Positions 30,383 to 51,714 of a stretch of 64,000 nucleotides of DNA are shown here, one piece after another (position 1 is the stretch's first letter; the number at the start of each line of letters is the position of its first letter). A model generated the notes under the pieces. That model saw nothing but the letters and a program-made list of their open reading frames with translations. It made no database searches and was not told the origin of the DNA. This DNA is from Candidatus Latescibacterota bacterium (lineage in GTDB: Bacteria; Krumholzibacteriota; Krumholzibacteriia; WVZY01): assembly GCA_011772205.1 (NCBI GenBank), contig WVZY01000071.1, positions 62,001 to 126,000 of the forward strand. Reading direction: 5' to 3'. Made by a program: the position numbers and the translations under genes.

Positions 30383-30412
30383 CAGAGGCTTTTATTCTTC
30401 AATACACTAGAT

Positions 30413-31750: not shown

Positions 31751-31752
31751 GC

Positions 31753-32730: not shown

Positions 32731-32801
32731 TCGCTTACCTCACGATAGGACGATTTGCAAATGGGAGCATCCCGTTTTCGATGACGCTTATTTATAAAGG
32801 A

Positions 32802-32831
32802 AGAATAGCCTACCTAACCTTAATTCGTCAA
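32802..32831 (-). promoter_or_regulatory. Candidate internal promoter for acsD-acsC-acsV
   Basis: On the minus strand TTGACG (32826-32831) and TATTCT (32802-32807) are 18 bases apart, about 70 bases before the acsD ATG, in a 279-base gap. It would let the corrinoid protein genes be expressed apart from the upstream CODH/ACS genes. Confidence 0.5.
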
Positions 32832-33009
32832 AAAATTGCTACGAATTATCTCCTAAAGCGCTTTATTATTAACATAATTCGAGGCGTTTGGCGCGTCTCG
32901 TTCACCACTCGGCTCATGGTTCTCGCGCGCGTCTAAAGTTATAGCGCGCTGCGGAAATCGCCTCGGGGCAAACGGGACACGCCCAATGTACATTCTTGAC
33001 GGACCAAAG

Positions 33010-33774
33010 CTAATTCTCAGGATAAATCCCAATGTTCTTCAAAATCTCCCCAACAGCCCGATGTGCGGATGCATCCGCAGAGAGATGGTCGATTGATAGA
33101 CCTTTCTGGTCCAATTCGAGTATCCAGCTATCCTCAGGGATGCTGCTTATGAGCGTTAAACCTTCGTCCTGGATGGCTTCTACCACCGCTTCAGGAACCG
33201 GGCCCTGAACACGGTTCAAGACAAGATCTTTCTCGCCAACACGCGTGTCTAATTCCTTCAATAGCCTGCTGATCTTGCCTGCTGTACGAATCCCCCGTAC
33301 CGAAGGATCGGAGACTATCAGCAGATAATCGATGCTCTGATGGGTCCGGCGGCTCAAGTGTTCCATGCCCGCCTCATTATCGATGACAACATAGCCATAG
33401 TTGGCGCTCAGGGTAGCCAGGATGTCTCGAAGCAGGTTGTTGGCATAGCAGTAACAGCCCGGTCCCTCGGGCCGCCCCATGGCAATGAGGTCGAACGCTG
33501 AAGTCTCCACCAAGCTCGTTTGTATCTTGTACTCCAGGAATCTCTGTTTGGTCATTCCCCCGGGTAGATTATCAACGGAATCTCTCATTTCTTCCCGGAT
33601 CACACCGATCGTTTCCCTGAGTTCGACGCCGAGCAATTCGTTCAAGCTGACATTCGCATCGGCATCTACCGCCAATACGGAACCTTTGGAGTAATCACTC
33701 AGCTGTCGTACCATCAAGGCAGCCAAAGTCGTTTTGCCTGTTCCGCCTTTTCCCGAGATCGCTATGGTCTTCAT
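33010..33774 (-). CDS. cooC: CooC/AcsF-type nickel-insertion ATPase
   Basis: 254 residues. The deviant Walker A SGKGGTGKTT at the N-terminus, VLAVDADANVSLNELLG, the CYC motif (PGCYCYANNLLRD, about 112-126) that binds Ni/Zn at the dimer interface, and VVIDNEAGMEHLSRRT place it in the CooC family of MinD-like ATPases. It matures the nickel sites of CO dehydrogenase and/or acetyl-CoA synthase. It begins nine bases after the acsB stop. A second family member is at 39587-40375. Confidence 0.92.
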   Translation of the reverse strand: MKTIAISGKGGTGKTTLAALMVRQLSDYSKGSVLAVDADANVSLNELLGVELRETIGVIREEMRDSVDNLPGGMTKQRFLEYKIQTSLVETSAFDLIAMGRPEGPGCYCYANNLLRDILATLSANYGYVVIDNEAGMEHLSRRTHQSIDYLLIVSDPSVRGIRTAGKISRLLKELDTRVGEKDLVLNRVQGPVPEAVVEAIQDEGLTLISSIPEDSWILELDQKGLSIDHLSADASAHRAVGEILKNIGIYPEN

Positions 33775-33783
33775 GATTTATCT

Positions 33784-35988: not shown

Positions 35989-36124
35989 CTTTTTTATCTC
36001 TCTCGCGGTACAACGAGCCTATTCTGCTTTTGGCTTATCGTGGCTCTTTTATTCCAGCTACTTCATCCAGAGCTCATTACAAAAAGCTCAGATCAAATGT
36101 GAAAAGGGCTGCCGGGGCAAAATT

Positions 36125-38077
36125 CTAGATTTCGAGTTCTCTTCTCATCTCCATGTCATATAGTACTCGCTCTTTGCCTTTTGCAATCCCCAGGTTCCGG
36201 CGTTTTTCATTGATATGATCTATGATGAGTGCAGCCATTTTAGAAGGATCTGGTTCCGTGGCCCACATTCCACCGAAGATTTTTTCGAACTCTTTGAAGA
36301 TATGATCAGAAAAAGTCTTGCTGCCGATGACAGGAAGGCCCACCCCGAATATGGTAAACACGCCCGATGCAACGAAGTAATGGCCGATAGAGATGGCTTT
36401 CTCACTCATCCACTCGGGCGCAGCCCCTGCCACGGGAAGCTCGCTGATATCCTTACCCAAGCCTCCCACTCTAACCATCTCGGACAGTGCAATCAGAATG
36501 CGGCTGTTATCCACACACGATCCCGAGTGGAGTACAGGTGGCATGCCCACGGCCTTACAAACTTCGGCCAAACCTCTGCCGGCATGTTTCTCAGCCGATT
36601 CCGGGATGAGGAATCCCGCCTTTGCACAGGCAATGGCAGAGCAACCTGTCTGGACGACCAAAATATTGTTACCGATGAGTTCCTCGACGAGGCTCACGTG
36701 ACTACGGTCATGGGTCACCTTAGGATTACAGCAGCCAACGATACCCGCAACGCCTTTAATCCTTCCGTTGATAACGTTGTCGTTGAGGGGAACGTAAGAC
36801 TCACGGAATCTGCCCCCAAGCATATAATTGATCGCTTCATGGCTGAACCCGGCGATGAGATCCATCTTTTCTTTGGGGATGTCTACGTTGTCCCTGTTGG
36901 GGAAGTTTTCGATGGCCTCCCTGATGATTTCTTTGGCCGTTTCCAAAGCATTTCTCTCGGAGAACTCATAATGTATGGCACCGACGATCTTCGCCTTGGA
37001 GGAGGTGCTCACGATTTTAGTGTGGTAATATTTGGAAATCTCCGGAAGTGAGGGCATGATACACTGGACATCCACGATCATCGCATCGACGGCACCCGTG
37101 CTGAGGGCCAGCTCCTGCTGCAGAATGTTGCCAGCGATTGGCAAGCCATGCCGCAAAAGAATCTCGTTGGCCGTGCAGCAGATCCCGGCCAGATTTATTC
37201 CCTTTGCCCCCTTTGACTTGGCAAGATCGAGCAAATCTTTGTCCCTGGAAGCGGCAACGAGCATTTCTGAGAGCACGGGCTCATGACCATGAACAATGAT
37301 ATTGACGTCCTCCTCGGAGAGCACGCCGAGATTCACCTGGCCCCTGAGAGGTGATGGGGTGCCAAACAGGATATCCTGAAGCTCGGTGGCGATCATAGAC
37401 CCCCCCCACCCATCAGCCAGGGCGGTTCTGGCCGCCTGCAGCATGATGTTTTGATGGTCGTGATCCACACCCATGTTGGTTCTGTGCATCGTCTCCACGA
37501 TTTCCCGGTCAATACCTCGAGGAGCGACGTTTAGCTTCCGCCAGAGTGCCTGTCTCGTTTCAGGAGCATTTTTTATGAAGTCCACTTCACCTACCTGCTG
37601 CCCAAAATTTTCAATGGATCTTTTGGCAACTTCGAAAGCAATGTCTTCCTTGGGCCGATCTTCTACATCTGCGCCCAAAACTCGTGCAACTTTCTTGAGC
37701 TTATTCGTATCCTTTATGGAATAGCCGGAATCGGAATCCTTTGCCGCGGACAACAACGTTTGGGCGACTTCGCGGCCGTGGTCGGAATGGGCGGCTGCTC
37801 CTGCTGCAATCATGCGAGCAAAATTCCTGGCAACGATCACCTCGGCCGTAGCACCACATACGCCTTTCTTAGGACCTTTGCCCTTGAAGCTGATGCGGCA
37901 TGGACCCATGTAACAAATGTGGCAGCACAGTCCTTGCTCTCCGTACCGGCAGTGTGGCGTCTGCCCATCGGAACGGTCCCAAATAGTTTCCACTCCTTCT
38001 CGACTGCTTTTCTTGAGCAGTTTTTTGACCGCTGGGTCCACGCTTTTTTCTTTGTTTTCTTTGCGTTCTTTGCCCAT
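36125..38077 (-). CDS. cooS: Ni-containing carbon monoxide dehydrogenase, catalytic subunit
   Basis: 650 residues (AcsA/CooS family). The N-terminal CRYGEQGLCCHICYMGPC holds the B- and D-cluster cysteines; C-cluster elements are seen in NIIVHGHEPVLSE, AGICCTANE, DVQCIMPS, GIVGCCNP, TGCSAIACAKAGF and SGSCVDNSR. It reduces CO2 to CO for acetyl-CoA synthase, or oxidises CO. It lies 136 bases upstream of acsB and 262 bases downstream of the methionine synthase-like gene. Confidence 0.97.
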   Translation of the reverse strand: MGKERKENKEKSVDPAVKKLLKKSSREGVETIWDRSDGQTPHCRYGEQGLCCHICYMGPCRISFKGKGPKKGVCGATAEVIVARNFARMIAAGAAAHSDHGREVAQTLLSAAKDSDSGYSIKDTNKLKKVARVLGADVEDRPKEDIAFEVAKRSIENFGQQVGEVDFIKNAPETRQALWRKLNVAPRGIDREIVETMHRTNMGVDHDHQNIMLQAARTALADGWGGSMIATELQDILFGTPSPLRGQVNLGVLSEEDVNIIVHGHEPVLSEMLVAASRDKDLLDLAKSKGAKGINLAGICCTANEILLRHGLPIAGNILQQELALSTGAVDAMIVDVQCIMPSLPEISKYYHTKIVSTSSKAKIVGAIHYEFSERNALETAKEIIREAIENFPNRDNVDIPKEKMDLIAGFSHEAINYMLGGRFRESYVPLNDNVINGRIKGVAGIVGCCNPKVTHDRSHVSLVEELIGNNILVVQTGCSAIACAKAGFLIPESAEKHAGRGLAEVCKAVGMPPVLHSGSCVDNSRILIALSEMVRVGGLGKDISELPVAGAAPEWMSEKAISIGHYFVASGVFTIFGVGLPVIGSKTFSDHIFKEFEKIFGGMWATEPDPSKMAALIIDHINEKRRNLGIAKGKERVLYDMEMRRELEI

Positions 38078-38339
38078 TTCTCAAAATTCCTTATAAACTC
38101 TCGACGCTTGTAGCTGCTTTCTCCTTCTCCTTCGCAACTTTGAGAATCAAAAGGCAATCCTCATGTGCAAAGGATCAACAGGCAAAATATTTGTTCTGCC
38201 GCCAAGACGACTTAGTATGATCAAAAAGTCTTCGAATAGATTATAACTATTTATCGAAACAATCTATGGCGAGGAAAAGTTCTCTCAGCGGAACTTTGCC
38301 CAGGAATCTGTGCCTGATACGAAAAATACAAACATTCTA

Positions 38340-39380
38340 CTAGCCGGAAAGTATGTTTTTCAGTTCTGCGAGAACGGAAAAAATCCTGTCGGATAATTCC
38401 ACTGAAAGAGTGCCGGTTCCACAGGATGGTGTGAGCAAGCACCTTTCCCAAAGCAGATTTCTATCGACTCCCTTATTCACCATGTTGCCGATCAATTCCT
38501 CGAGTTTTTGTGCAAGTGATTCTGGATCTTCTTCGTTGATTTTCCCAGATGTGGGAACAATTCCCCAAGCTATAGCACCTCCCTTATCCAGGAATTTTCT
38601 TATCTCTTCAGGATAATACCCGATTGTTTCACCGAATTCGTAAGCATCAAAGCTGATGACATCGACTCCCGCTTCGATCAAGATTGGCCATTCCGTGTTG
38701 CCGCAACAGTGCGATCCCACCAAGGCACCATCTTTGTGAATGGCTTCGACCACTTCATTTATATGGCTGATGACATCCCGGCGCTGGACGCTAACGTATG
38801 TGGATGAACCGAAGGCTGATAAAATTGGCTCATCGATGAAACATATTTGCCTGCAGCCCAGGGAATTGAATTTATCCAGGAGCCACCTGGCTTTCATTGT
38901 CATTCCTTTGACGACGACATCTCTAAAAACTTCGTTGTAATAGATAGACCGCTTATTTTCGTCGATTATTGCCAATCCGAACGTAACAGGACCCGTCACC
39001 TGGCTTTTGAAGAATTTCATTGATCCAGGTTTTTTAGCTGCGAGCTTTGCCCCCATTTCGTAAATGCCGCGACTGAAATGTGGGGATATTTTGAAGTACT
39101 CGAGATTCTCCGCCACGTAGTTTTCGTAAAATTTCTCCAGCTCGCTCGTGGAGTCTCCACTCGTGTCAAAATACATCCTTTGTTTGGACGCATCCAGGAC
39201 AGCGCAGGGCAGTCCCTCACTGTATTGGATCTCCATCTGCTCACGGAAATCGATTTGAGAAAGTTGTGGCCAGACAGGGATTTCCGGGATCGTATCCAGG
39301 ATGATGTCACAGGCTGAAGAGGCATCCTGGTGGGGGAAGCTCCCGATCGCGGTCGCCATACAATTGGGACTGAAAGTCAT
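38340..39380 (-). CDS. Core MetE-like, folate-independent methionine synthase (MesB-type candidate)
   Basis: 346 residues from the ATG at 39380. It corresponds to the C-terminal catalytic half of MetE alone (ATAIGSFPHQD at the start, VTGPVTFGL, CFIDEPILSAFGS). Zinc/homocysteine ligands are visible as H224-C-C226 (SHCCGN) and C320 (LTPSCGTGT). Core MetE proteins lack the folate-binding half and take methyl groups from corrinoids; the MesB family is known from bacteria with the Wood-Ljungdahl pathway. Its place between cooC2 and cooS suggests CFeSP as methyl donor, feeding homocysteine methylation. A methylcobamide:thiol methyltransferase for another thiol is the alternative. Confidence 0.78.
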   Translation of the reverse strand: MTFSPNCMATAIGSFPHQDASSACDIILDTIPEIPVWPQLSQIDFREQMEIQYSEGLPCAVLDASKQRMYFDTSGDSTSELEKFYENYVAENLEYFKISPHFSRGIYEMGAKLAAKKPGSMKFFKSQVTGPVTFGLAIIDENKRSIYYNEVFRDVVVKGMTMKARWLLDKFNSLGCRQICFIDEPILSAFGSSTYVSVQRRDVISHINEVVEAIHKDGALVGSHCCGNTEWPILIEAGVDVISFDAYEFGETIGYYPEEIRKFLDKGGAIAWGIVPTSGKINEEDPESLAQKLEELIGNMVNKGVDRNLLWERCLLTPSCGTGTLSVELSDRIFSVLAELKNILSG

Positions 39381-39586
39381 CTGACACTCACTCTCCGCGG
39401 GATATTGCAATCTATAATTTTATTATCTCTGTGTCCAAAATACAATATATATTTCGCGAATCCCTCGGTACGAGAAGCAGGAATAAACGATTCATTATAG
39501 GATACTGATACGTTTTCTGATTACGGGGGAAGGCCAGGAAAAAATTGAAAAAAGATTCGACTACTGATTTGCTTCAGTCTTCGGAC

Positions 39587-40375
39587 TCAAGAAACAAGAG
39601 CGTCCCCATGCTTCAATCTCTGAAAGATTTTTGCGAACTCAGCTTTCAGGTTCTCTTCCATCAGTTCAATCAGTGGCTGCTGTTCCATATCCGCCTCGAG
39701 AAAGACGGAATGATATGGAATCATTCCCAAGATAAATTCTTCCGGGAACTGAGCAGTGATCCAACTCTTTTGTTGTTCATTCTGGATTTTGTTACCGACG
39801 ATTCCGAAGGACTCAATTCCTATCTCACGGGCCAATTTCATGATGGTTTCAGCTGTGTTCACGCTTCTGAAGCTGGGCTCGACGACAATAATCATCCTGT
39901 CCACGGCTCCGGAGGTCGCTCTCCCAAGGTGTTCGATGCCGGCTTCCAAATCCACAATGACCACTTCTTCTCGCTCGAGAATGATTTCGTTGAGCAGGCT
40001 CTGAAGGAGAACGTTTTCCGGACAGGCACACCCGTTTCCTCCCTTTTGGACGGCGCCCAGCACCAATAATTTGATGTCCTTATAATTGATAGAGAACTTG
40101 TCGGGAATGTCGGAGACAGTGGGATTCAGCTTGAACAGCTGTCCAAACTGCCTCGGGCTCGCACCTGTTCTTTGTTTGATCAATTTACGCTGCTCTGAAA
40201 TGGGCTTGATCGATGCTGCTTGGGATTCCGGGATTCCGATGGCCGAAGCCAGGTTGGAATCTGGATCTGCATCCACGGCCAAGACCTTATACCCATCATT
40301 CATGAAATAATGGGCAAGGATTCCTGCCAGAGTTGTCTTTCCAGCACCTCCCTTTCCCGATATAGCTAGTTTCAT
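39587..40375 (-). CDS. Second CooC-type maturation ATPase
   Basis: 262 residues from the ATG at 40375. It has the deviant Walker A ISGKGGAGKTT, VLAVDADPDSNLASAIG, a CAC motif (NGCACPENVLL) equivalent to the CXC metal site of CooC, and VVIVDLEAGIEHLGRATSG. With the CooC at 33010 the cluster has two such ATPases, as in acetogens where CooC and AcsF differ in target (CO dehydrogenase C-cluster or ACS A-cluster). Which is which cannot be read from the sequence. It is the first gene of the CODH/ACS block. Confidence 0.9.
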   Translation of the reverse strand: MKLAISGKGGAGKTTLAGILAHYFMNDGYKVLAVDADPDSNLASAIGIPESQAASIKPISEQRKLIKQRTGASPRQFGQLFKLNPTVSDIPDKFSINYKDIKLLVLGAVQKGGNGCACPENVLLQSLLNEIILEREEVVIVDLEAGIEHLGRATSGAVDRMIIVVEPSFRSVNTAETIMKLAREIGIESFGIVGNKIQNEQQKSWITAQFPEEFILGMIPYHSVFLEADMEQQPLIELMEENLKAEFAKIFQRLKHGDALVS

Positions 40376-40828
40376 GGGATCATCCAACCTCTCGGATGGA
40401 TCGAAAGACACTGTTTCCAGAGTGCAATAAAACAATCATGAAAAGAGGCATTCTCCGTGAGAGTGAGAAATCGAGTCTTTCTGATCAAGGATTCAAGAGC
40501 TCCCCCCATTGTGGCCCAGGTGCGTTAGCCGAATCAAGGCCCGATGCTCGGCATCTGATAATAGGAGAGACTGCCGAGCTCATTCGCAGGTCAAGAAGGC
40601 CTCTCGGCTGTGTCGGAGTATCGGACCAGGCTTGTCATGAATCTGGCAGGAAAAGGCTCAACAAAGACTGAGTGCTTTCAGGCGGTCTCCAATTCGGCTT
40701 CGCTGAGCTTCTCCTGGAACAATTAATGGAAAATATCTTTCCGCCCCTGAAATGGATGTAATGCAAGCGTGGGCTCTTTGAAGAATCACGGGATCCAATC
40801 CGCTATGCAATAATGTTCGGATATCTTA
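40376..40828. other. Intergenic region upstream of the CODH/ACS block
   Basis: About 450 bases between divergent genes. It must hold the promoter for the minus-strand CODH/ACS genes but I see no convincing hexamer pair. I looked for a cobalamin riboswitch B12 box here and did not find one. A 91-codon plus-strand frame at 40396-40671 is not recognisable. Confidence 0.45.
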
Positions 40829-40857: not shown

Positions 40858-41038
40858 CAATCTTTTTAAATATCACTTGAACTCGCGCATATAGCATGGG
40901 CGCCAAACCACCTACTTGCTGGAACCGGCGTGCTGAGGGAGAGCTAATAGATGAATGAGTTCCATGCATGCCGCCAACATCATACCCGTGCGCATTTCTG
41001 AGACTTCACCTGCGTTCCATCTCAAAGGAGGGTCTAAG

Positions 41039-42208
41039 ATGCGCAAAGCAATTTTTAAACTCGATCACGTGCGCAGCGCATCCGCTCTTTTCATTGGGCT
41101 CGGTCTTCTTTTTTGCTGCGTTTCTCAAGGCTTGGCCGGCGCCGACGTAAAAGATTCACCGCTCTTTGCAAGAGTTCTCGATTCCTCACTCGATGAACTC
41201 ACGCTGCCCTCCAACGCGTTCGCCCGCTGGAGTACCCGGGAGCTTGGCGAATCGTTCACGAATGCGCTGTTGGGCAGGCCGGCTTACGCACGTCAGCAAG
41301 CAGCAACCGTTTACGGTGAAAAGGCAACGCTTTGTTACAAAGATAACAGCCTCCCCGTCACCCACTGCGACCCGAACAGCGGAATGGGGCAGATATGTCA
41401 CTATACCGTACACTCGCAGTGGTATACTCAATGTAACAAGCCCGGCAACAGGACGGTGTGCATTGACGGCGGCACGCAATGCCCGGGAGACGGAGCATCC
41501 AATCAATGTTCGACGGCAATGTCCGGAATTATCACTGACTGCGAGCACGCAGGCCCCACCCTTTGCTACTTGCAAGGAACCGGATGCGAGGTCGGTGACA
41601 GGAACCGCTGCTATACAGTGGGTCCAGGTGATGAGGTAACGAGATGCCAATCCGGTCATGAATATGCAACGCTTTGCAATAAAGAAGTGACGGGTTGCTC
41701 ACGCACGGGTCATCGAGTTTGCCTGACTTTTGCAAGTAATACTAAAACTTATTGCGCAAGTGGGTCTCATGTCACCGTATGCCTTGGGGCAATAACAGAA
41801 TGCATCGACGACTTGATAAGGGAGGGATGCGATGGTTTCGCCTCATCCCTCAGGCAGACAATCACACCCCGCGGGAATAACATTCTCGTAGTCGCCAATA
41901 CTGGCGATCCATTTTGGGGGGATCCCGCGTTGGCCGATCTGGAATTCAATCCGCCTGGTCCTTCTGTTGCATATGCAGTGGTATACGATTCGACGGAAAC
42001 GCGGTTTTACATAGACTTCCCCGTTGAAGAGCATTACGACGTACTCCTACATAACGGTGTTGATCCTCCATTGCCAACAACAGGACTTCACGTAATGGAG
42101 TTTACGCCGATTCCCACCATCAGGACGGCGGGGATCATCCTATTGACGGGGCTCCTCTTTGGAGCGGGAATCATGATTCTCCTGAGACGCAGGCGGCAGG
42201 CTTCCTAG
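41039..42208 (+). CDS. Cysteine-rich secreted protein with IPTL-CTERM-like sorting signal
   Basis: 389 residues from an ATG with a perfect AAAGGAGGG six bases ahead. A signal peptide (about 14-34, SALFIGLGLLFCCVSQGLAG) is followed by about 70 ordinary residues and then a cysteine-dense region (about 100-265) built of short imperfect repeats of the type T-x-C ... C about every 18-22 residues (TLCYKDNSLPVTHC, TVCIDGGTQC, TLCYLQGTGC, TLCNKEVTGC, TVCLGAITEC). The C-terminus (358-389) reads IPTIRTAGIILL, a hydrophobic helix, then LLRRRR: the three-part IPTL/PEP-CTERM signal recognised by exosortases. The gene just downstream encodes an exosortase-like protein. Function unknown; probably an extracellular disulfide-rich protein. 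Confidence 0.85.
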   Translation: MRKAIFKLDHVRSASALFIGLGLLFCCVSQGLAGADVKDSPLFARVLDSSLDELTLPSNAFARWSTRELGESFTNALLGRPAYARQQAATVYGEKATLCYKDNSLPVTHCDPNSGMGQICHYTVHSQWYTQCNKPGNRTVCIDGGTQCPGDGASNQCSTAMSGIITDCEHAGPTLCYLQGTGCEVGDRNRCYTVGPGDEVTRCQSGHEYATLCNKEVTGCSRTGHRVCLTFASNTKTYCASGSHVTVCLGAITECIDDLIREGCDGFASSLRQTITPRGNNILVVANTGDPFWGDPALADLEFNPPGPSVAYAVVYDSTETRFYIDFPVEEHYDVLLHNGVDPPLPTTGLHVMEFTPIPTIRTAGIILLTGLLFGAGIMILLRRRRQAS

Positions 42209-42384
42209 CTGAGCTCCCCTGGTGAAAGACGTCTCTGTTTTCTGAAAATTTGCATGAAACGCTGACCTTCGGCAGCGTTCCGTAGGGCGGTTGAAGCTGA
42301 CGACCTCCGGTCCCAGCTCAACCTCCATGGATCGAGCATTTTGTCTTTCCCACGATTTCGCCTCAACCTTAGCTTGGAGTTTCA

Positions 42385-45036
42385 TTGCCAAACTCGGATT
42401 CTCGCCCCAATCGTGAATCTCATGAAGCAGTAACGAAAGGTTCGAAACACATTCGAACTGAAAAGACTTCACCTGAGGGTGGGTATCCACCACAAGCATC
42501 GTTTCTGTGGAATATCGTCCCCGCCACATTCGTCGGTTTGTTATTCCTGTGTGAATGCCAGGGCGTAGTGGATACTGGCTTTGCCCTGGTGCTGGCTTTT
42601 CTGCTCCTCGGCCTACCCCAGACCATCCGATTTATTAAACAGCCACCTCGAATACGCCTGCGTTCTCTCCTCTATTATATAGCAGCATGGGTGGTACTAT
42701 TCGCCAGCGCGCAAGTTCCGGCCTGGTGGCGGCCAGCTTTGGCGGCACTGTCTCTTCATAGCTGGTCGCAAGCCTTACAAAATCATGAAGAGCGGCGCGC
42801 CTTCCAATCCCTCATAGGAGGGACCGCGCTATTCGCCCTTATACTTCCCTCTTTTGCTGCGTTCCCGCCTTTATTGGCAATTCAGGAAGGTTGGGCTTCA
42901 TTCCTGTCAAAAATCTTAAGTGCGGTTTTCGGCAGGCCCCTTTCGGTTTCGGCGCCCGTTCTGGGTTTCGAGGCATGCCTGCTTTTTATTTGTATATTGA
43001 TCAATTCGGAATTCCTCCAAACAGGCCGTCGTGACCGTAGATGGCAGCGTATTGGCGGGGGAATGCTAATCGCCCATCTGGGGCCGATCGTTTGGGGCAC
43101 GTTGTTGATCTTTTTGCCAGGCTTTGACAGTCCCCTGCAAATCAGACCGGATCCAATTGCAGATCCCATGAAGCTATTATCCGATCTCACCCTAACGCAC
43201 CTCGTGATTTGGGGACCTTTCGTTGTTTCTGTACTGCTTGCGTTCTTGCTTCCTGCACGACTGCGGACAATCAGTATAGAAGGCCAGGACTCCCCAGATT
43301 TCCTTTTCCCGGCAAAGGTTCCCTGGACAAAGAAGCAGCTGTTATCAGCCGCCGTTGCAGTGCTGCTTCTCACCATCGCCGGAGGGTTGGCCCCCTGGTT
43401 GGAGCGTCCCGTTGAACGACGCGGTGCCACAGTAGTGCTGTATGAGAAAGGCTTCTTGAACTGGCTTCGCCCGAATTTCGAATTCTTTGGCCGCCGGAGT
43501 GCCGGCATGTTCGGACTGCTTCCGGATTTCATCGAATCGATCGGGCTTCGCGCGCAGCGCACTTCATCACTAACGCTGGCAACCCTGAGAGGCGCCTCAG
43601 TGCTTTTTATTGCAAACCCAGAGGGCCCGCTGCCGAAGTCGGAACAGGACGCCGTCTGGAAATTTGTGAGGGGAGGTGGGCATCTTATACTAGCCGGCGA
43701 TCACACCAGCTTACGAGGAGGCTGGGGTAATCCGCTGAATATTCTGCTGGAGCCGACGGACATTCGTTTTCGCACCGACTCAGCAAACTTTTTCACGGGC
43801 GGTTGGATCCACGGCTATCGCTTCCCGATGACGCCGTTGACGGCAGGTTTTCGTCCCGATCAGAATGAGCCCGCACTGGTAGTGGGAGCATCGCTGGAAA
43901 TCGGATCCAAGGCACGTCCCCTTGTTATTGGCCGATGGGGATATTCCGATGATCCTGCGCTGGCCGATAGCGCCAGTGGATTCTTGGGCGATCTCAAGTA
44001 CAGCCCAGGCGAGCATATTGGTGATCTTGTCCTGGTGGCAACCCAGCAGATGGGCCGCGGCCGGGTGACGGCTTTGGGGGATACTTCACCGTTTTTCAAC
44101 GGCATTCTCACAATAAGCTACTCGTTCGTTTCTCGGCTGTTTCTCTGGGCGGCTGCGCTGTCTCCCGATCCGCCATTTCGACTGTATTTAACGAACTGTG
44201 TGCTTGCACTGCTGCTGGGCTTAATACTGGCCCACGTATCCAGCCGGTTTTCGTCCGTTCTGATCGCAGGCGCCCTGGGTGCGACCATTCTGGGTTCTTG
44301 GGGTATCCACCAACAGGCCCAATGGTCCCCTCCATTTGAGTCCGGTCATATTGCCTTCTTGGATGCATCGCACCTGCCCCAGCATCAGCCGGGAATTTGG
44401 GAAGACCCGGGCATCATGGGCCTGCCGGTTAACATGATGCGATACGGTTACCAGACGTATTTCCTTGATCGCTTCGATAACAATCTTTTGAAGAAAGCCA
44501 AACTCCTGGCCTTGATAACGCCGCGCCGGGAGGTCACGGATCGGGAGACAGCGCAGCTCGCCGAATGGGTGCAAGCCGGCGGGACCCTATTGATTTCGAC
44601 CGGAGCAGAAGAAGAGGCCCCGATCCGCTCGCTGCTCCGGCACTTTGGATTGGCACTCCAGCCCATTCCGCTTGGAGGCCTCGATATCGAAAGCGAGTTT
44701 GGGCTGGTTCAAACGAAGGAAGCCTGGCCATTGGAGTTTGCGCCGGGTGATCGACAGCCAGGTCAAGCTCAGGTCATCTTGTCCTGGCGAGATTACCCAA
44801 TCGCAATGCGCCTTCACCAAGGGGACGGTCAGGTGATTGTCGTAGGGGACTCGAAGTTTTTCTGCAACTACAATCTCGAGCATGATAATCACGCGCATAT
44901 CTCCAACGTGAAGTTCCTGGGTTCTTTATTACCGCCCGTGGAGGATGTAGCCGACGAGGTAGAAAACTTCATGAAAGGTCAGGAGCTCGGTGGCGAAAAC
45001 GAAGAGGGTTCCGATACCAAGAAGCCTGAACCATGA
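42385..45036 (+). CDS. Exosortase-like membrane protein fused to two amidotransferase-like (DUF4350-type) domains
   Basis: 883 residues from a TTG with GGAG five bases ahead; no ATG occurs early in the frame. Residues 1-310 have eight predicted membrane helices. The loop before helix 6 reads FGRPLSVSAPVLGFEAC with C198, and LTHLVIWGPFVVSVLLAFLL before helix 8 gives H272; these sit where exosortases have the catalytic Cys (xEACSG) and His (Hxxx-G). The conserved Arg of helix 7 is not seen (AHLGPIVWG). After helix 9 come two Rossmann-like class I glutamine-amidotransferase/DUF4350-type domains (about 345-615 with VLFIANPEGPL and GGGHLILAGDHT; about 660-860 with GGTLLISTG) split by two helices (about 620-655). 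Probably acts on the upstream CTERM protein. The exosortase assignment is inferred by eye. Confidence 0.6.
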   Translation: MPNSDSRPNRESHEAVTKGSKHIRTEKTSPEGGYPPQASFLWNIVPATFVGLLFLCECQGVVDTGFALVLAFLLLGLPQTIRFIKQPPRIRLRSLLYYIAAWVVLFASAQVPAWWRPALAALSLHSWSQALQNHEERRAFQSLIGGTALFALILPSFAAFPPLLAIQEGWASFLSKILSAVFGRPLSVSAPVLGFEACLLFICILINSEFLQTGRRDRRWQRIGGGMLIAHLGPIVWGTLLIFLPGFDSPLQIRPDPIADPMKLLSDLTLTHLVIWGPFVVSVLLAFLLPARLRTISIEGQDSPDFLFPAKVPWTKKQLLSAAVAVLLLTIAGGLAPWLERPVERRGATVVLYEKGFLNWLRPNFEFFGRRSAGMFGLLPDFIESIGLRAQRTSSLTLATLRGASVLFIANPEGPLPKSEQDAVWKFVRGGGHLILAGDHTSLRGGWGNPLNILLEPTDIRFRTDSANFFTGGWIHGYRFPMTPLTAGFRPDQNEPALVVGASLEIGSKARPLVIGRWGYSDDPALADSASGFLGDLKYSPGEHIGDLVLVATQQMGRGRVTALGDTSPFFNGILTISYSFVSRLFLWAAALSPDPPFRLYLTNCVLALLLGLILAHVSSRFSSVLIAGALGATILGSWGIHQQAQWSPPFESGHIAFLDASHLPQHQPGIWEDPGIMGLPVNMMRYGYQTYFLDRFDNNLLKKAKLLALITPRREVTDRETAQLAEWVQAGGTLLISTGAEEEAPIRSLLRHFGLALQPIPLGGLDIESEFGLVQTKEAWPLEFAPGDRQPGQAQVILSWRDYPIAMRLHQGDGQVIVVGDSKFFCNYNLEHDNHAHISNVKFLGSLLPPVEDVADEVENFMKGQELGGENEEGSDTKKPEP

Positions 45037-47669
45037 ACGGATTCGAAATAAAAAAAGCTGAGTGGACTGCCGCATTGGCCGCCCCGCTTGTGGCCGGTGC
45101 CGTGCTCGAACTCATAGGGGGGACATGGCTCATGCGGCCGGTTCTGAGCGCAGTCCTCGCCGCTACCGCCGTTCTAGTGATCGGTCTCGGTGGAGCCTCT
45201 GAACCGCAACGAACCAGAAGCCATCTGACAATAGAAATCGGCGCGCTCCTCCTTGCAGGGCTATTGGCACCCAGCCCTTGGCGTTATGTGCTGCTTGCCG
45301 CCGCGCTCATGAGCCTCTTGGCCGGAGCTGGACTCGGCACGTCGAGACGGATAACGGAAACCGGCAAGCGTCTGGCTTGGGGACTGCGAACGGTTGTTAT
45401 ATCGGCGATCCCCGTTGTAGCGATCGTCATCTGCTTTTCAACATTGGCCCTTACTATTCAAACGCTACCGGGTATCGCTTCCCCCCTCTCCGCCATTCTC
45501 CGTCTTTTGCACATAGATGCCGCGGCTTTTGGGAATTCCGTGGCCGCCGTGACGTTGCACGGAACTCCATCGATCCCTATGACATGGTCAAACCTGGGCA
45601 TTTTTGCATGGGTTACATTCTTGGCAGCTTATCTGGCCATCAGATCGGCAAACGGTCAGAGACTCGCCTGGGCGGAGGTTTGGCAAATCACGCTGATTAT
45701 GTTTATCACATGGATACTGCAGGTAATCGTCATCTTCACAGCAGTGTTCCATTACGAAATGTTTTTGCTCTTCGATTTGAAAGAATGGCCTCAAGGTTGG
45801 CTTTCCAGTCCTCTGCTGCAGCTCCTCATAATGGCAGTCGTCGCGTCTCCATTGCTGGCCACCCGCATGATAAAAACGGTCAACAGATCTCCCCAGTCTC
45901 CTCCTCTTCGCAGATGGATTTACCCGTCTATCGCTTTGCTTGCACTTCTGGCCGGTTTTTTCCTGGTTTTCTCGGAACCAGGTAAGCAAAAACCCGGGCG
46001 AATCCTAGTTGACGAAGGGCACAGCCGGTGGGAACCGGTCGAACCCCGCTACGATACCGACTGGTACGGCTTCGATTCTGGATACAACTACGCGGTGATG
46101 ACCGATTTTCTTCGGCATCATTATGAACTCGCTGTTCATCGGGATGTTCTCGATGAGGAATCGCTCAAGGGCGTAGATGTTTTGATCATAAAAGTTCCGA
46201 CACACAGCCACACGCCGGAAGAGCGAAAGGCCGTTCTCGACTTCGTACGGAGAGGTGGAGGGCTCTTTCTCATCGGTGAACACACGAATGTGTGGGGATC
46301 TGGATTTTACCTCAACAAATTGGCGCATCCTCTCGGCTTCGAGTTTCGATACGACGTCGTCTTCGATTTGGAGAGAAAGTTCGAGCAGATTTACACGGCA
46401 CCGGCTCTGGGCAAGCACCCCATTCTTGAACACATCAATCAATTTCTCTTTGCCGTATCATGCTCCATCAAACCTCGATCCTTCTCTGTCCGCCCCGTGA
46501 TGTCAGCCGGAGGACTCTGGAGCCTCGATATCGATTACGCTGTTAGCAATTTTTACCCCTCGCCACATCTGGCACGCAATGCTGTTGTAGGACAACATGC
46601 GCAATTTATCGCCCGCCATTTTGGAAAGGGGCGCGTGGCCGGCTTTACAGACAGCACGGTGTGGTCCACGTTTTCAGCCATGCTCCCAGGCAAGCCGGAG
46701 CTTCTGATGGGTACTATCGAATGGTTGAATAGGCGCAACCGCTTTCCCGATACATACCCTTTTGGACGAGTGCTCTTTACTCTGATGGGGATGGCGGTCA
46801 TAGCGGCAATATGGAGGTGGCCCAAATCGGCTGGCATCATCTTGTCTATTTCCACAGCCGGGATCCTTGCTGGTGCCAGGCTTGGGGATACCGCCGGCCG
46901 TGGCTTGTATCAACTTCCGCACTCGAAACCAGGTTTTAGCCAGATATGTTTTATCGAGGATGCCAGCACTTATGATCTTGCTTCTTGGGGCCACGTGAGC
47001 GTTTTCGACCGTAGTTATTCCATCTTCTACCAATGGGTGAACCGCGTCGGTCTTTTTCCCAAGGTCATAACGGAAGAATCCCCGCTCCCAAATTCAACTC
47101 GTGCAATCATTCGCATTGTGGGGACAAGCCCGCCTGGGCCTCTCACTGCTTCGAACATTGCTGGCGCCCTGGAACTCGGCAAACCAGTTTTTCTGTTGGT
47201 GCGTGCTGATGCTGACTCCGGCTTTGTACCTTTGCTCGCCAATTACGGTATCCGTCTTGTACCTGGTGAAACGCGTGAAACACCAACGTTGCGCGTTCCA
47301 AATACTTCCATAGAATGGCCATCGCCATGGCGCATCGATCACGAGATTCAAGGGGGGAGGCCGTTGCTTGTTGGCGCGCAGGACGAGGTCATCCTGTGTG
47401 TTTCCAAACAGGCGCCGCTTCATATTCTTCTAGGCGCGGAGCGTTTTAGCGATGCGTGGATGGGGGAGGATCAAGGGCGCACTCCCGACCTTGATTTGCG
47501 CCGCCATTATGAGTTGGAGTTTTCCCTTCTACGCGGCTTGACGACAGGGCGGCTACAAGAAGAACTGAAGGAAGGAGCGACACGTCCTGTTGCCGTGCGC
47601 AGTAGCCGGCAAGTCAATGGCGAACAACCTTTGGTCGATCGGCCCGCCGGTAGACATCATGAGAAATGA
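45033..47669 (+). CDS. Paralogue of the preceding exosortase-like/amidotransferase-like fusion, catalytic Cys absent
   Basis: 878 residues, start overlapping the previous stop by four bases (ATGA), so translation is coupled. It has the same layout: eight N-terminal helices, a ninth (about 292-313), a soluble amidotransferase/DUF4350-like domain (about 325-590, RRGGGLFLIGEHTNVWG), two helices (about 575-610) and a second soluble domain (about 640-840). In the exosortase-like loop (FGNSVAAVTLHGTPSIPMTW followed by SNLG) the Cys position is W185, and the later His and Arg positions are also replaced. It probably serves as a non-catalytic partner in a heterodimer with the preceding protein. Weakly conserved between the two, so the duplication is old. 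Confidence 0.6.
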   Translation: MNGFEIKKAEWTAALAAPLVAGAVLELIGGTWLMRPVLSAVLAATAVLVIGLGGASEPQRTRSHLTIEIGALLLAGLLAPSPWRYVLLAAALMSLLAGAGLGTSRRITETGKRLAWGLRTVVISAIPVVAIVICFSTLALTIQTLPGIASPLSAILRLLHIDAAAFGNSVAAVTLHGTPSIPMTWSNLGIFAWVTFLAAYLAIRSANGQRLAWAEVWQITLIMFITWILQVIVIFTAVFHYEMFLLFDLKEWPQGWLSSPLLQLLIMAVVASPLLATRMIKTVNRSPQSPPLRRWIYPSIALLALLAGFFLVFSEPGKQKPGRILVDEGHSRWEPVEPRYDTDWYGFDSGYNYAVMTDFLRHHYELAVHRDVLDEESLKGVDVLIIKVPTHSHTPEERKAVLDFVRRGGGLFLIGEHTNVWGSGFYLNKLAHPLGFEFRYDVVFDLERKFEQIYTAPALGKHPILEHINQFLFAVSCSIKPRSFSVRPVMSAGGLWSLDIDYAVSNFYPSPHLARNAVVGQHAQFIARHFGKGRVAGFTDSTVWSTFSAMLPGKPELLMGTIEWLNRRNRFPDTYPFGRVLFTLMGMAVIAAIWRWPKSAGIILSISTAGILAGARLGDTAGRGLYQLPHSKPGFSQICFIEDASTYDLASWGHVSVFDRSYSIFYQWVNRVGLFPKVITEESPLPNSTRAIIRIVGTSPPGPLTASNIAGALELGKPVFLLVRADADSGFVPLLANYGIRLVPGETRETPTLRVPNTSIEWPSPWRIDHEIQGGRPLLVGAQDEVILCVSKQAPLHILLGAERFSDAWMGEDQGRTPDLDLRRHYELEFSLLRGLTTGRLQEELKEGATRPVAVRSSRQVNGEQPLVDRPAGRHHEK

Positions 47670-47696: not shown

Positions 47697-48734
47697 TTAT
47701 TCGTAGCAATTCTTGCAGTAGTCGGGCAGATCGTGTTTCCTGATCCTCTCGCGAAAATCCCGGTATACCCTCGAATTCCAAATTTCGATAAAATCGTTCT
47801 CGAAAACGTTGCCCATCTTGACCGTTTCGGAATCCGCGAGAATGCAGCACGGGACGACATCCCCGTTCGCGGCGATATATGCGCTCGTCCAGGGCCAAGC
47901 GCACTTGCGCTTTCGGGAATAGCGATCATGATACGTGACAGTAACCGCTAAGCCGCATTCCGCCGCAGCCTGTTTGGCTTCTTCGATTGATTTGCCAAAG
48001 CGCTCGGAGACTGTTTCCACCTTGATCGAATCCGTGAATGATTCCATCGACTTCTTGCCCCAATTACTGAGGAATGTTTGTACCGTGAGCTGGTCGAGTC
48101 CGAGCTGCTTTGCGAGACGAACGATGGCGGGCAGCTCATGAACATTATCCCTCGTCACCACCGTCCAGCCGACAATCTCGGGCTGCTTTTTACCGACTCT
48201 CGTACGGATCAGGCGCTCGATATTCTCGAGGACTTTCGAAAACCTACCTCCGACACGAATTTTCTCGAAGACTTCCGGTGTCGCCCCGTCGATGCTAAAG
48301 GCGATCTGCGTGTTGCTCAATCGAACCAGTCGATCCGCGATCTTCTGGGTGCATATGCTCCCGTTCGTAAAAAAACTCATCGCGGCACCGCGCTTCTCCC
48401 CCGCCTCGAGCATCGCAAAGAGGTTGCTGTTGAGGAGGGGCTCCCCCATGCCCTGGAGTTTAACTCTAACGAGATTGGGAAACTGGTCGAGGATCCTCGC
48501 GAAGCCCTTCTCGTCCAAGTAAAAGCTCGGTTTCGACCAGTGAGTGACCTGGCAGTGAGGACATTCAAAATTGCAGGTGTTATTGGGCTCGATGTCGATC
48601 GCCACCGGAAGGAATGGCACCTTCTTCCATTTGAAGCGTGAAGCGAGCTTGATCCCTATATAGTTCAGGACTTTCCGGAAATCCCAGAGCCTCGCACCCA
48701 GTGCGCCGATTTTGATGTCTGTGATGCCTGCCAC
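47697..48734 (-). CDS. Radical SAM protein with SPASM domain
   Basis: 345 residues from a GTG at 48734 (GGAG nine bases ahead; a TTG at 48755 is the alternative). The radical SAM cluster motif is CNFECPHC after IDIEPNNT (about residue 55), followed by a GMGEPLLN motif that binds the SAM amino group. The C-terminal SPASM region (CAWPWTSAYIAANGDVVPCC ... LPDYCKNCYE) supplies cysteines for auxiliary clusters. Such proteins modify peptides, sugars or alcohols. No precursor peptide is visible next to it; the neighbours are a glycosyltransferase and a sulfatase-fold protein, so a cell-envelope or polysaccharide role is possible. Confidence 0.88.
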   Translation of the reverse strand: MAGITDIKIGALGARLWDFRKVLNYIGIKLASRFKWKKVPFLPVAIDIEPNNTCNFECPHCQVTHWSKPSFYLDEKGFARILDQFPNLVRVKLQGMGEPLLNSNLFAMLEAGEKRGAAMSFFTNGSICTQKIADRLVRLSNTQIAFSIDGATPEVFEKIRVGGRFSKVLENIERLIRTRVGKKQPEIVGWTVVTRDNVHELPAIVRLAKQLGLDQLTVQTFLSNWGKKSMESFTDSIKVETVSERFGKSIEEAKQAAAECGLAVTVTYHDRYSRKRKCAWPWTSAYIAANGDVVPCCILADSETVKMGNVFENDFIEIWNSRVYRDFRERIRKHDLPDYCKNCYE

Positions 48735-48818
48735 TTGCTTATACTCCGTTTTCAACTCTCAGATGACCCACGCCCTCCAGCCTCGAGGCAGCTACCCTTT
48801 CGAGTGGGCCTCCGGCTC

Positions 48819-50033
48819 TCAGGTTGAAGCGGTTATTTTTTTGAGCATCGTATCCAGACGCGCGGGATAACTTTCCATCGAAATATTTTCCTCGGCCCAG
48901 AGGCGCGCATTATTTCCGATTCGGCGTGCTTCATCACTATCTTCGAGTAATTTGACTATCGCTTCGGCCATCTCATTGGTCGATTCCGCTTCGAGGTAGT
49001 CCCTGCTCGCCTTCAGCCCCATCCCGGAAACACCTATCGACGTGCTCACGACCGGTGTCCCCATGGCGGCAGCTTCCATCATCCGTATCCTGACTCCACC
49101 GCAGAATCTGAGCGGAAGAACCATCACCGAGCATTTGCCGATGTAAGGCCGGATATCTTCGACTCCGCCGACGAAGGCGACGTTCACTCCAGCCGCAGCG
49201 CGCAAACTTTTATCCACACCGTGACCGACAACCTCGAAATGCGCTGCAGGATTTTTTGCGAGGACTATAGGAAATACTTCCTTCATGAAGAACCGTAATG
49301 CGTCTCTATTGAAATCAGAGTAGAACATGCCGATAAAGAGAATCCTGTTCCGTTCACGCTCGAAAGCCCCGGAATTGAACGAAGAAAGATCGAGCGCCAG
49401 AGGAAGCGGATACACGGTTAATCCCGCAGTGGCCGGAAGACGGCCAAGCACATCCGCATCGGAAGGCGTGACGGTGAGAATCGTTTCATAGCGCTCGTAC
49501 GCCATTTTTTCGATCCGTTCCAGTGTCTTCAACCGAATCGCGGCCCAGAAGCGGGCGAACCCGCTCATCGCCTGCAGCCTTCCGGGATTGACAATAAAAT
49601 CGAGATCGTGCGTGATGAGAACGAGCTTCGAGTGCTCGATGTAATCGGGTAATCTGTAGAGGTGCCAATAGGACGCGAGGATGAGGTCCGCTTTCTCCTC
49701 CTTAGCTGTATCCGCTACGAGCTGCAGAAACCTTTTGGGTGCAGCGTATCCAACCTGTGCAGGAACGCCAGCGAACAGAGCAGTGGAGATATTTCTCACT
49801 TTGTAATAGATGCGGTGAAAGGCGCTTTGCCGGTGCGGCGCTAAAATGGCGCGAACGCCGATTCGCGGCTTTTCGATTTCGCGCAGGCGTTCGAGCTCGC
49901 CTTTGCTCAGCGCAGCTGTGACGAGAACCACGTCGTGGTTATCAGCGAGTCCATCGAGGAGGTTCAGAATGAGCCGGTCCGTGCCCCTCGTCACGGGCCA
50001 GGGAGCGTAGGGAATTGCGACGATGATTTTCAT
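48819..50033 (-). CDS. Glycosyltransferase, GT4-like (GT-B fold)
   Basis: 404 residues. The N-terminal Rossmann half begins IIVAIPYAPWPVTRGTDRLI; the C-terminal half has RILFIGMFYSDFNRDALRFF, the nucleotide-sugar contact region VEDIRPYIGKCSVMVLPLRF and MEAAAMGTPVVSTSIGVSGM with the E-x7-E-type motif of GT4 enzymes. It probably transfers a sugar during polysaccharide or glycolipid synthesis at the cytoplasmic side. It lies about 85 bases upstream of the radical SAM gene on the same strand. Confidence 0.88.
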   Translation of the reverse strand: MKIIVAIPYAPWPVTRGTDRLILNLLDGLADNHDVVLVTAALSKGELERLREIEKPRIGVRAILAPHRQSAFHRIYYKVRNISTALFAGVPAQVGYAAPKRFLQLVADTAKEEKADLILASYWHLYRLPDYIEHSKLVLITHDLDFIVNPGRLQAMSGFARFWAAIRLKTLERIEKMAYERYETILTVTPSDADVLGRLPATAGLTVYPLPLALDLSSFNSGAFERERNRILFIGMFYSDFNRDALRFFMKEVFPIVLAKNPAAHFEVVGHGVDKSLRAAAGVNVAFVGGVEDIRPYIGKCSVMVLPLRFCGGVRIRMMEAAAMGTPVVSTSIGVSGMGLKASRDYLEAESTNEMAEAIVKLLEDSDEARRIGNNARLWAEENISMESYPARLDTMLKKITAST

Positions 50034-50184
50034 TTCTAATTAGCTTTACCCTCTATTATCTCCGTGTAAAAATAAGGGTCCGAATTCGTTTGCACTTGCT
50101 TTTTCTAGTCCATTGAAAAATGCCGGTTCAAAAGATAGACAATGCCGTGGTAGGGCTTGAAACACCTCGGCGGGGGCGACGATG

Positions 50185-51714
50185 CTACTTTATGTACCCC
50201 AATGATCTCAATTTTTCGACTACTTCCCGTTTTTCTTCATCCGACATCAGATCCAAATTATCCCCAAGCGCCATTAAATTCTGTTTCCGCCTATGCTTAT
50301 TCTCGTTTCTCATTTTCAATATCTTATCATACATAGATTCCACGAGTTGAGGAATACGAGTAGCAAAATTGATTCTTTCCTGTGGATCAGCAACAATATC
50401 ATAGAGTTCAAACTTGCTGCCTTTTGAGCAAATCAACTTATAGTTATTTTCAACCAATGCATCTATCTGATCGTGTTCTTGAACATCATCGAAGTATAAA
50501 AACTCGCTCTCTTCGACATTCTCGAAGATCAATGGTCTATAACTGTCTCCTTGCATGTTATCTTTGTACTTCACACCAAGCAAATCTTTTAATGTTGGCA
50601 TTAAACCGAGGAGAGAGACGTAATCCTTTATCCTTTTACCTTTAGGAAGCTCCGGACCGGCTATTATGAGGGGCACCCTTATTAGTCCTTCATAGTAGTG
50701 ACAATTAAGCCCGTGCCCTCCATGTTCGAAAAGGCCATGTTCGCCGAATTGCTCGCCATGGTCCGAAGTAAAAACGATGTACGTGTTGTCCAAGAGATTT
50801 TTGTGTTTCAGAATCTGGAGGATAAACCCAACCCTCTCGTCCACGGATTCTACTTCCGCAAAATATAGATCCCTGATATATATCTGTTCCACCATGGAAC
50901 ATTTTTTTCTGTCATATTTTGTTTTCGAATAATAACTCCTGGGTACAGGAAGCTTGGATTCATCCACATCAATTCGCGAAGCAAATTTCTCAACAGGATC
51001 ATATGGAGAATGAGGATCGAGGATCCAATGGAGTGTGAAAAAACTCTCCCCGGGACGTATATTCAATAAATGTTCAAGAACGCAAAAAGAATACCGGTAT
51101 GCCTCTGATTCTCGCCATGAATCATATAGTCCGCCTCTCGTAAGATTGTTAATACTATCAGCCATTTGTTTTGAATGTTTGAATTGCGGGATTGAGTCAA
51201 ATCCTTGCAGGTTGTTGTGCATCAGAGCACTAATATTTTCAATCACCATTCCTGCAACATAATCTAACTGTTTCAGAGACTCGACGAATAGAAACTCGCT
51301 ATGTGGCACATAAATCTGAGGTATGAAAATATATTCTGATTTTTGCGCAATAGGGTGTTTTTTAAATCTCCCCTCTATCGAATATTCATACGAAGTTGCA
51401 TAATTGCCGGTAAACATGCTAACAGCAGACGGTGATGTCCAGGGAGAGGTGCTGTAGGCGTTCTCGAAAAGGATTCCATTTTTAGCCAACCAATTAATAT
51501 AAGGCGTCTCGGCGACACCACCATAACATCCCAAAACATCCTGGCGGAGAGCATCGGAGACGATCATTACCACATTATATTTTTTTGGGGGATCTTGAGT
51601 GGGCGCCTTACTTCCGGTTGAGAAAATCAGATAGTAGGCAACAGCAACCAGTAAAATGAATACTGATGAAAACAAAACCAGCGTCCTCAATGTCATATTC
51701 TTGTAACCATTCAT
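50185..51714 (-). CDS. Membrane-anchored sulfatase-fold protein (alkaline phosphatase superfamily)
   Basis: 509 residues. An N-terminal anchor (about 8-32) is followed by the sulfatase fold: metal-binding VMIVSDALRQD (D54), the nucleophile loop and FTSDHGEQFGEHG. At the place of the C/S-x-P-x-R formylglycine motif it reads T93-S-P-S-A97, so the modified Cys/Ser and the Arg are absent. A Thr nucleophile is typical of phospho-transferring relatives (phosphoethanolamine or glycerolphosphate transferases), so it may be a phosphotransferase/phosphodiesterase and not a sulfatase. The C-terminal tail LRSLGYIK is a common end in this family. A decayed relative is at 25676-26050. Confidence 0.85.
   Translation of the reverse strand: MNGYKNMTLRTLVLFSSVFILLVAVAYYLIFSTGSKAPTQDPPKKYNVVMIVSDALRQDVLGCYGGVAETPYINWLAKNGILFENAYSTSPWTSPSAVSMFTGNYATSYEYSIEGRFKKHPIAQKSEYIFIPQIYVPHSEFLFVESLKQLDYVAGMVIENISALMHNNLQGFDSIPQFKHSKQMADSINNLTRGGLYDSWRESEAYRYSFCVLEHLLNIRPGESFFTLHWILDPHSPYDPVEKFASRIDVDESKLPVPRSYYSKTKYDRKKCSMVEQIYIRDLYFAEVESVDERVGFILQILKHKNLLDNTYIVFTSDHGEQFGEHGLFEHGGHGLNCHYYEGLIRVPLIIAGPELPKGKRIKDYVSLLGLMPTLKDLLGVKYKDNMQGDSYRPLIFENVEESEFLYFDDVQEHDQIDALVENNYKLICSKGSKFELYDIVADPQERINFATRIPQLVESMYDKILKMRNENKHRRKQNLMALGDNLDLMSDEEKREVVEKLRSLGYIK

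Follow-up and report, generated by a model that had tools for sequence, protein, structure and literature searches.

Exosortases and archaeosortases (PF09721, TIGR04178; exosortase H, TIGR04177) are multi-helix membrane proteins found near CTERM-type proteins, and exosortase H pairs with proteins carrying IPTLxxWG tails. In a comparable arrangement, a rhombosortase gene stands beside a single GlyGly-CTERM gene (PMC3237569). GIFT domains, which have been proposed as sugar binders, are present in the Wbp1 subunit of oligosaccharyltransferase (PMC7226087), and archaeal DUF4350 families have been predicted to belong to a secretion or membrane-remodelling complex (PMC5898192). Here we analyze a locus within a stretch of 64,000 nucleotides from Candidatus Latescibacterota bacterium (the window; contig WVZY01000071.1, positions 62,001 to 126,000), in which a gene for an exported Cys-rich protein is followed by two coupled genes for large membrane proteins, hereafter A and B. 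The A-B pair beside a Thr/Ser-Cys repeat protein has the appearance of a system not yet described, with the repeat protein as its client; our literature searches turned up no publication that deals with it.

The A-B gene pair and its exported partner

Homologues were collected by scanning contigs by alignment; a prior single-sequence scan of the genome contigs had given no matches. A and B were adjacent (overlapping or abutting) at every locus whose contig permits this arrangement, commonly with a 4-base overlap, and in the window the two genes lie downstream of the Cys-rich gene on the same strand and share the four bases ATGA. The pair was found in records labelled Planctomycetota, Blastocatellia (Acidobacteriota), KSB1, Latescibacterota, Krumholzibacteriota, Eisenbacteria, Bacteroidetes, Desulfobacterales and Actinomycetota, where phylum names are those submitted with the records and some are probably wrong. 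Homologues of B were sporadic, being detected in 8 of 80 genomes of the window's phylum (E 1e-10; some of these matches represent A or distant relatives), as well as in 1 of 82, 3 of 396, 16 of 392 and 1 of 346 genomes of the phyla of the KSB1, Blastocatellia, Planctomycetota and FK_Sedi genomes, respectively. This sporadic distribution argues against a housekeeping role.

An exported Cys-repeat protein adjoined the pair at 21 of the 25 assessable loci, which bears out, across many phyla, the sequence-only reading that the membrane pair belongs with its exported Cys-rich neighbour. These 21 loci come from records labelled Krumholzibacteriota and relatives, Acidobacteriota, KSB1, Eisenbacteria, Bacteroidetes, Actinomycetota and Planctomycetota. 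Loci were left out if they lay at contig edges (G102, G103, G464, G621 and G936), at a scaffold gap (G005) or had the Cys protein on another contig than the pair (G039). As background DNA contained 2 such open reading frames (ORFs) in 240 kb, approximately 3 would be expected over all A-B loci (Poisson P about 2e-10). The repeat gene precedes A in the window and its relatives, in Eisenbacteria and in most Planctomycetota loci. It follows B in six loci (L025, L030, L094, L098, L165 and L166) and lies nearby on the opposite strand in L154. This variation in gene order and distance, together with the different partner types (including RHS and TPR proteins), would fit an incidental neighbourhood, in which A-B serves a separate function and repeat proteins happen to be common in these genomes. 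Given the excess of observed over expected loci and the sporadic spread of the pair in three of the phyla (1/82, 3/396 and 16/392 genomes), we consider this explanation very unlikely. At three Planctomycetota loci (L183, L184 and L185), an RHS-type protein of approximately 2,100 residues is encoded directly before A, and two of these proteins end in a hydrophobic helix and basic residues.

The repeats of the partner proteins vary in length and sequence, yet in nearly all of them each Cys is accompanied by Thr or Ser at a constant offset. In the window partner, Thr precedes 14 of the 19 Cys of the repeat region by two residues, an arrangement matched by none of 20,000 shuffles; this phasing, along with the rarity of such ORFs in background DNA, shows that the protein is no chance feature. 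The same TxC type accounts for 59 of 62 Cys in L159 and 38 of 41 in L154, whereas other partners present a TC type (Thr at -1; 57 of 66 Cys in L155) or a CS type (26 of 31 Cys in L182). No Pfam or NCBIfam model exists for this exported family, and the module thus uncovers a family of Thr/Ser-Cys repeat proteins not covered by either collection. A GH-repeat ORF in L154 was rejected as a candidate, being the antisense of a TxCP repeat gene.

Many partners also carry, right behind the signal peptide, the motif S-P-[LAI]-[FY]-x3-L followed by L-E-G (SPLFxxSLxxaxxRLEG). Unlike the substrates of one-substrate sorting of the rhombosortase type, the A-B partners share no C-terminal signal, and their common element, where present, stands just after the signal peptide; the likeness to rhombosortase lies in a membrane protein gene that adjoins one exported partner. 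In the metagenome-assembled genome (MAG) labelled Actinomycetota, a protein of 654 residues encoded directly after B (L098 603-2567, minus strand) combines the leader motif with a long TC-repeat array, after which regions like PPC and cell-wall-binding repeats were recognized by eye.

Topology, fold and possible function of A and B

Hydropathy averaged over homologue alignments gave the same topology for both proteins: nine helices lead into a soluble domain, and two further helices connect this to a second one. The positive-inside trend puts the N terminus on the inner side of the membrane and the two soluble domains on the outer side. AlphaFold models match this topology in outline (pLDDT 69 for A and 59 for B). 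The sequence-only reading had described two coupled genes of about 880 residues with one topology; the coupling, the lengths (883 and 878 residues) and the shared topology stand, including the nine N-terminal helices (given there as eight and one more). The soluble domains of the pair match DUF4350, ABC_transp_aux and IFT52_GIFT in Pfam: protein A matched DUF4350 with E 5e-23 and IFT52_GIFT with 27.9 bits (cut-off 27.2), while the GIFT-type scores of B were under the cut-offs in the window and above them in a homologue. Foldseek matched the soluble domains of A and B to the GIFT domain of IFT52 (TM-score about 0.55-0.64 by target length) and also to glycosidases of beta-galactosidase type, with additional matches of B to glutamine amidotransferases. 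The soluble domains of A and B thus belong to the GIFT-domain superfamily and have an amidotransferase-like fold, as had been proposed from the sequence. No family match was found for the membrane regions, and PHROGs and PADLOC returned nothing for the system. B also gave weak matches to a coronavirus viroporin model and to carboxylesterases, which we attribute to chance.

The polar invariant residues of A and B sit in the soluble domains rather than in the membrane; in A, the most conserved positions outside the membrane are H440, D439, N452, D465, D566, T567 and N572. The catalytic Cys-His-Glu set of class I glutamine amidotransferases is not kept: A, which carries GDHT at a strand end, has no conserved Cys at all, and C477, the sole conserved Cys of B, lies elsewhere in the domain. 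Hence, while B resembles class I enzymes in fold (Foldseek), A and B appear, judging from motif position, to carry GDHT where these enzymes have Cys. With GIFT proteins (GldG, TIGR03521; IFT52; Wbp1/OST48 of oligosaccharyltransferase; DUF4350, PF14258), A and B have in common how their soluble domains fold and match Pfam models, and the placement of an outside-facing domain on membrane helices. They differ from these proteins in that each has two GIFT domains behind a nine-helix region, that they occur as paired paralogues, that they show conserved GDHT/GDTS and Cys477 features, and that they are linked to Thr-Cys repeat proteins. A related domain of DUF4350-like type, with a DH motif, is present in other exported proteins (L009-L014), one of them apparently a metallophosphoesterase fusion.

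We see an even chance that A and B make up a membrane complex of two subunits that is dedicated to the neighbouring repeat protein and uses its GIFT domains to modify or assemble it. Under this model, the two paralogues, coupled in translation, would be the subunits of a single complex in the inner membrane that serves the adjacent repeat protein; the partner would be secreted via its signal peptide, and the four GIFT domains of A and B, placed on the outer side of the membrane, would act on or hold it. The likeliest activity would be modification or assembly of the repeat array, for example by attaching a group such as a saccharide close to the Thr/Ser-Cys units or, alternatively, by guiding the array to fold into a disulfide-laddered fibre. 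The near-invariant H417 and C477 of B represent the best candidates for working residues. The IPTL tail found in this species would be a separate add-on, processed by an exosortase H encoded elsewhere in the genome. The module, conserved over multiple phyla, connects GIFT domains, known also from the intraflagellar transport and the oligosaccharyltransferase of eukaryotes, with one obvious class of candidate substrates, and so makes the role of these domains testable in bacteria. A more specific version appears quite unlikely, namely a new extracytoplasmic system in which a repeated modification or cross-link would be introduced at the Thr/Ser-Cys units, the post-signal-peptide motif would be recognized, the membrane region would descend from an exosortase that has lost its activity, and the GIFT domains would have taken over the active site.

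Several observations weigh against a complex that modifies or assembles the repeat protein. An RHS protein (approx. 2,100 residues) replaces the Cys-repeat protein at 3 loci (G782 twice and G872), G626 has in this place nothing but a TPR protein that carries the leader motif and no Cys repeat, and in the L186 partner Thr is located far from Cys. No donor-making genes are conserved across A-B loci and, to our knowledge, no enzyme activity is known for any GIFT domain. In addition, the filter for Cys-repeat ORFs was partly hand-tuned, the named records are MAGs, and the confidence of both AlphaFold models is modest.

A secretion or membrane-remodelling component similar to GldF/GldG, which would move the repeat protein instead of modifying it, seems to us a rather doubtful alternative. 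The matches to GldG/ABC_transp_aux and DUF4350 favor it, as does the prediction for archaeal DUF4350 families (PMC5898192), and genes for TolC, HlyD and a MacB-type permease follow in L026, with similar genes in L030. On the other hand, these transport genes occur at only two loci, the membrane region is not ABC-2-like according to Pfam, and no ATPase or ABC-2 gene stands directly beside the pair in the window. Moreover, the GldG model scored no more than 16-26 bits in homologues, as compared to a cut-off near 390. In L026 (798-8742) and L030 (11014-15549), a PD40 protein, TolC, HlyD and the MacB-type permease are encoded near the Cys-repeat protein; these families were tested in L026 and assigned by position and similarity in L030.

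The CTERM-like tail and possible similarity to exosortases

The Cys-rich protein of the window ends in IPTIRTAGIILL, a hydrophobic helix and RRRRQAS, and the exported Cys-rich protein with an IPTL/PEP-like tail, hydrophobic helix and RRRR reported by the sequence-only reading is therefore present. Its match to the Pfam IPTL-CTERM model was below the cut-off of 20.8 bits (11.5 bits, and 15.9 bits in the genome search). Compared to IPTLxxWG, the tail has the IPT motif, the helix and RRRR, with Ala where most other tails of the genome have Trp. At least 5 other proteins of the genome have IPTL-CTERM tails above the Pfam cut-off, and the window tail ranks eighth. The genome encodes two exosortases elsewhere (G000:C64:171100-171516, L002, and G000:C11:17330-18085, L001), i.e., an exosortase H, scoring 97.4 bits against the NCBIfam cut-off of 86 (TIGR04177), and an EpsH-type exosortase, whose gene adjoins that of a choice-of-anchor N PEP-CTERM protein. 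As an exosortase H and other IPTL-CTERM proteins are found in the same genome, the window tail is best explained as, and probably represents, a substrate signal of this exosortase H rather than of A. A CTERM tail beside a multi-helix protein can thus mislead, as the likely enzyme for the tail lies elsewhere in the genome.

Among the Cys-repeat partners, a CTERM-like tail was found at only 2 of about 20 loci, most partners being without a tail; the L155 partners have a hydrophobic tail with a basic end. Homologous fusions therefore occur regularly without a CTERM-type protein nearby, an outcome that the sequence-only reading had named as refuting it. An exosortase was undetected in 18 of 30 genomes with the pair, among them a single-contig genome of 4.3 Mb that is 91 percent complete and a Blastocatellia MAG of 5.2 Mb in which A-B occurs at two loci.

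It had also been proposed that A itself is a dedicated exosortase that cleaves the CTERM tail of its neighbour using C198 (in FEAC) and H272 (in THLVIWG). Both residues are present in the window, whereas the importance given to them does not hold: the column of C198 has Cys in 2 of 24 homologues, and that of H272 has His in 6 of 24 and otherwise mainly N, S and D. No Arg stands out as conserved in the membrane region of A. Exosortase models matched neither A nor B in Pfam (E up to 1) or NCBIfam (E up to 5), and the profile similarity of A to exosortases was no greater than that of controls, an apparent global match being an end-gap artefact. The eight or nine N-terminal helices of A, the real CTERM-like tail next door and the hydrophobic, basic-ended tails on L155 partners and two RHS partners would agree with such an enzyme; set against the mostly tail-less partners and a genome with its own exosortase H and other IPTL-CTERM proteins, they leave it extremely unlikely, and A was rejected as an exosortase on its unconserved Cys and His and the missing family-model match. 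A-B differs from exosortases also in its large added GIFT domains and its two coupled paralogues.

For B, profile comparison gave a hint that was weak and not confirmed by natural decoys. The membrane region of 28 B proteins could be aligned with 43 exosortases collinearly over most of its length (profile-profile alignment; hhalign with sets narrower than these 43 sequences was uninformative), and the score exceeded those of all 60 block-shuffled controls, both locally and globally. In a related test, a helix 7 Arg that 27 of 28 homologues share, with Trp in its place in the window, meets the exosortase Arg, and a beta-hairpin before helix 6 meets the exosortase hairpin; the AlphaFold model of B shows an amphipathic helix and beta-strands ahead of helix 6. 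The positions of the catalytic Cys and His of exosortases are lost in B; in the aligned TWEKLG segment, Cys occurs only as isolated single cases among the 28 sequences. The hhalign probability was 8-16 percent, and B was barely or not distinguishable from 21 natural membrane decoys (P = 0.04 local, P = 0.79 global). No exosortase chain was found by sequence in our copy of the PDB, leaving no solved exosortase for a fold comparison. Overall, these data are only suggestive of the membrane region of B being a remote, catalytically altered relative of exosortases. That this region (and, by paralogy, that of A) is a former exosortase domain, which would have lost Cys and His, kept Arg and become a substrate-recognizing or transport scaffold, is compatible with a modifying or assembling complex and seems rather unlikely.

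Two long ORFs (L175 and L174; 571 and 600 aa) were matched by the exosortase model and have C-termini that by eye resemble CAAX proteases (CPBP); these are possibly exosortase-CPBP fusions.

Window features and neighbouring genes

The coordinates of the partner, A and B are collected in Table 1. An in-frame Met at 41039 opens the signal peptide of the Cys-rich protein and is the likely true start.

Table 1. Positions of the partner gene, the A and B genes and their domains in the window
Feature	Position	Strand	Remarks
Exported Cys-rich protein, partner of A-B	40955..42208	+	417 aa, 21 Cys; ORF call and homologous or analogous Cys-repeat proteins beside the pair at 20 other loci
Post-signal-peptide motif SPLFARVLDSSLDELT	41156..41203	+	Fits SPLFxxSLxxaxxRLEG of partners in other phyla (alignments; L094, L098)
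Thr-x-Cys region	41333..41830	+	19 Cys, 14 with Thr at -2
IPTL-CTERM-like tail (IPTIRTAG, helix, RRRR)	42110..42205	+	Probably exosortase H substrate signal
Protein A	42385..45036	+	883 aa; nine membrane helices, GIFT, two helices, second GIFT/DUF4350
Nine-helix membrane region of A	42517..43404	+	C198 (42976-42978) and H272 (43198-43200), both unconserved
First GIFT domain of A	43417..44154	+	H440 (43702-43704) in GDHT motif, invariant (24/24)
Second GIFT/DUF4350 domain of A	44347..44934	+	Pfam DUF4350, E 5e-23 for whole protein
Protein B	45033..47669	+	878 aa, paralogue of A
Membrane region of B	45054..45971	+	Residue 227 (45711-45713) Trp; Arg in 27/28 homologues
First GIFT domain of B	45990..46742	+	Near-invariant H417 (46281-46283, 28/28), C477 (46461-46463, 26/27), D327, D382, K387, D441, D540
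Second GIFT/DUF4350-like domain of B	46941..47582	+	AlphaFold-model secondary structure; Pfam match to this domain in L029 homologue

Convergent with B, genes for a radical SAM/SPASM protein, a glycosyltransferase similar to TIGR03087 (score under the cut-off) and a member of the sulfatase family occupy positions 47697-51714 of the minus strand. The radical SAM gene, which has no counterpart at the other loci read, was set aside. On the other side of the partner gene, a minus-strand cluster (28472-40435) apparently belongs to the acetyl-CoA pathway; it includes CbiA/ParA-like ATPases and a protein of the Prismane/CO dehydrogenase family (36125-38077).

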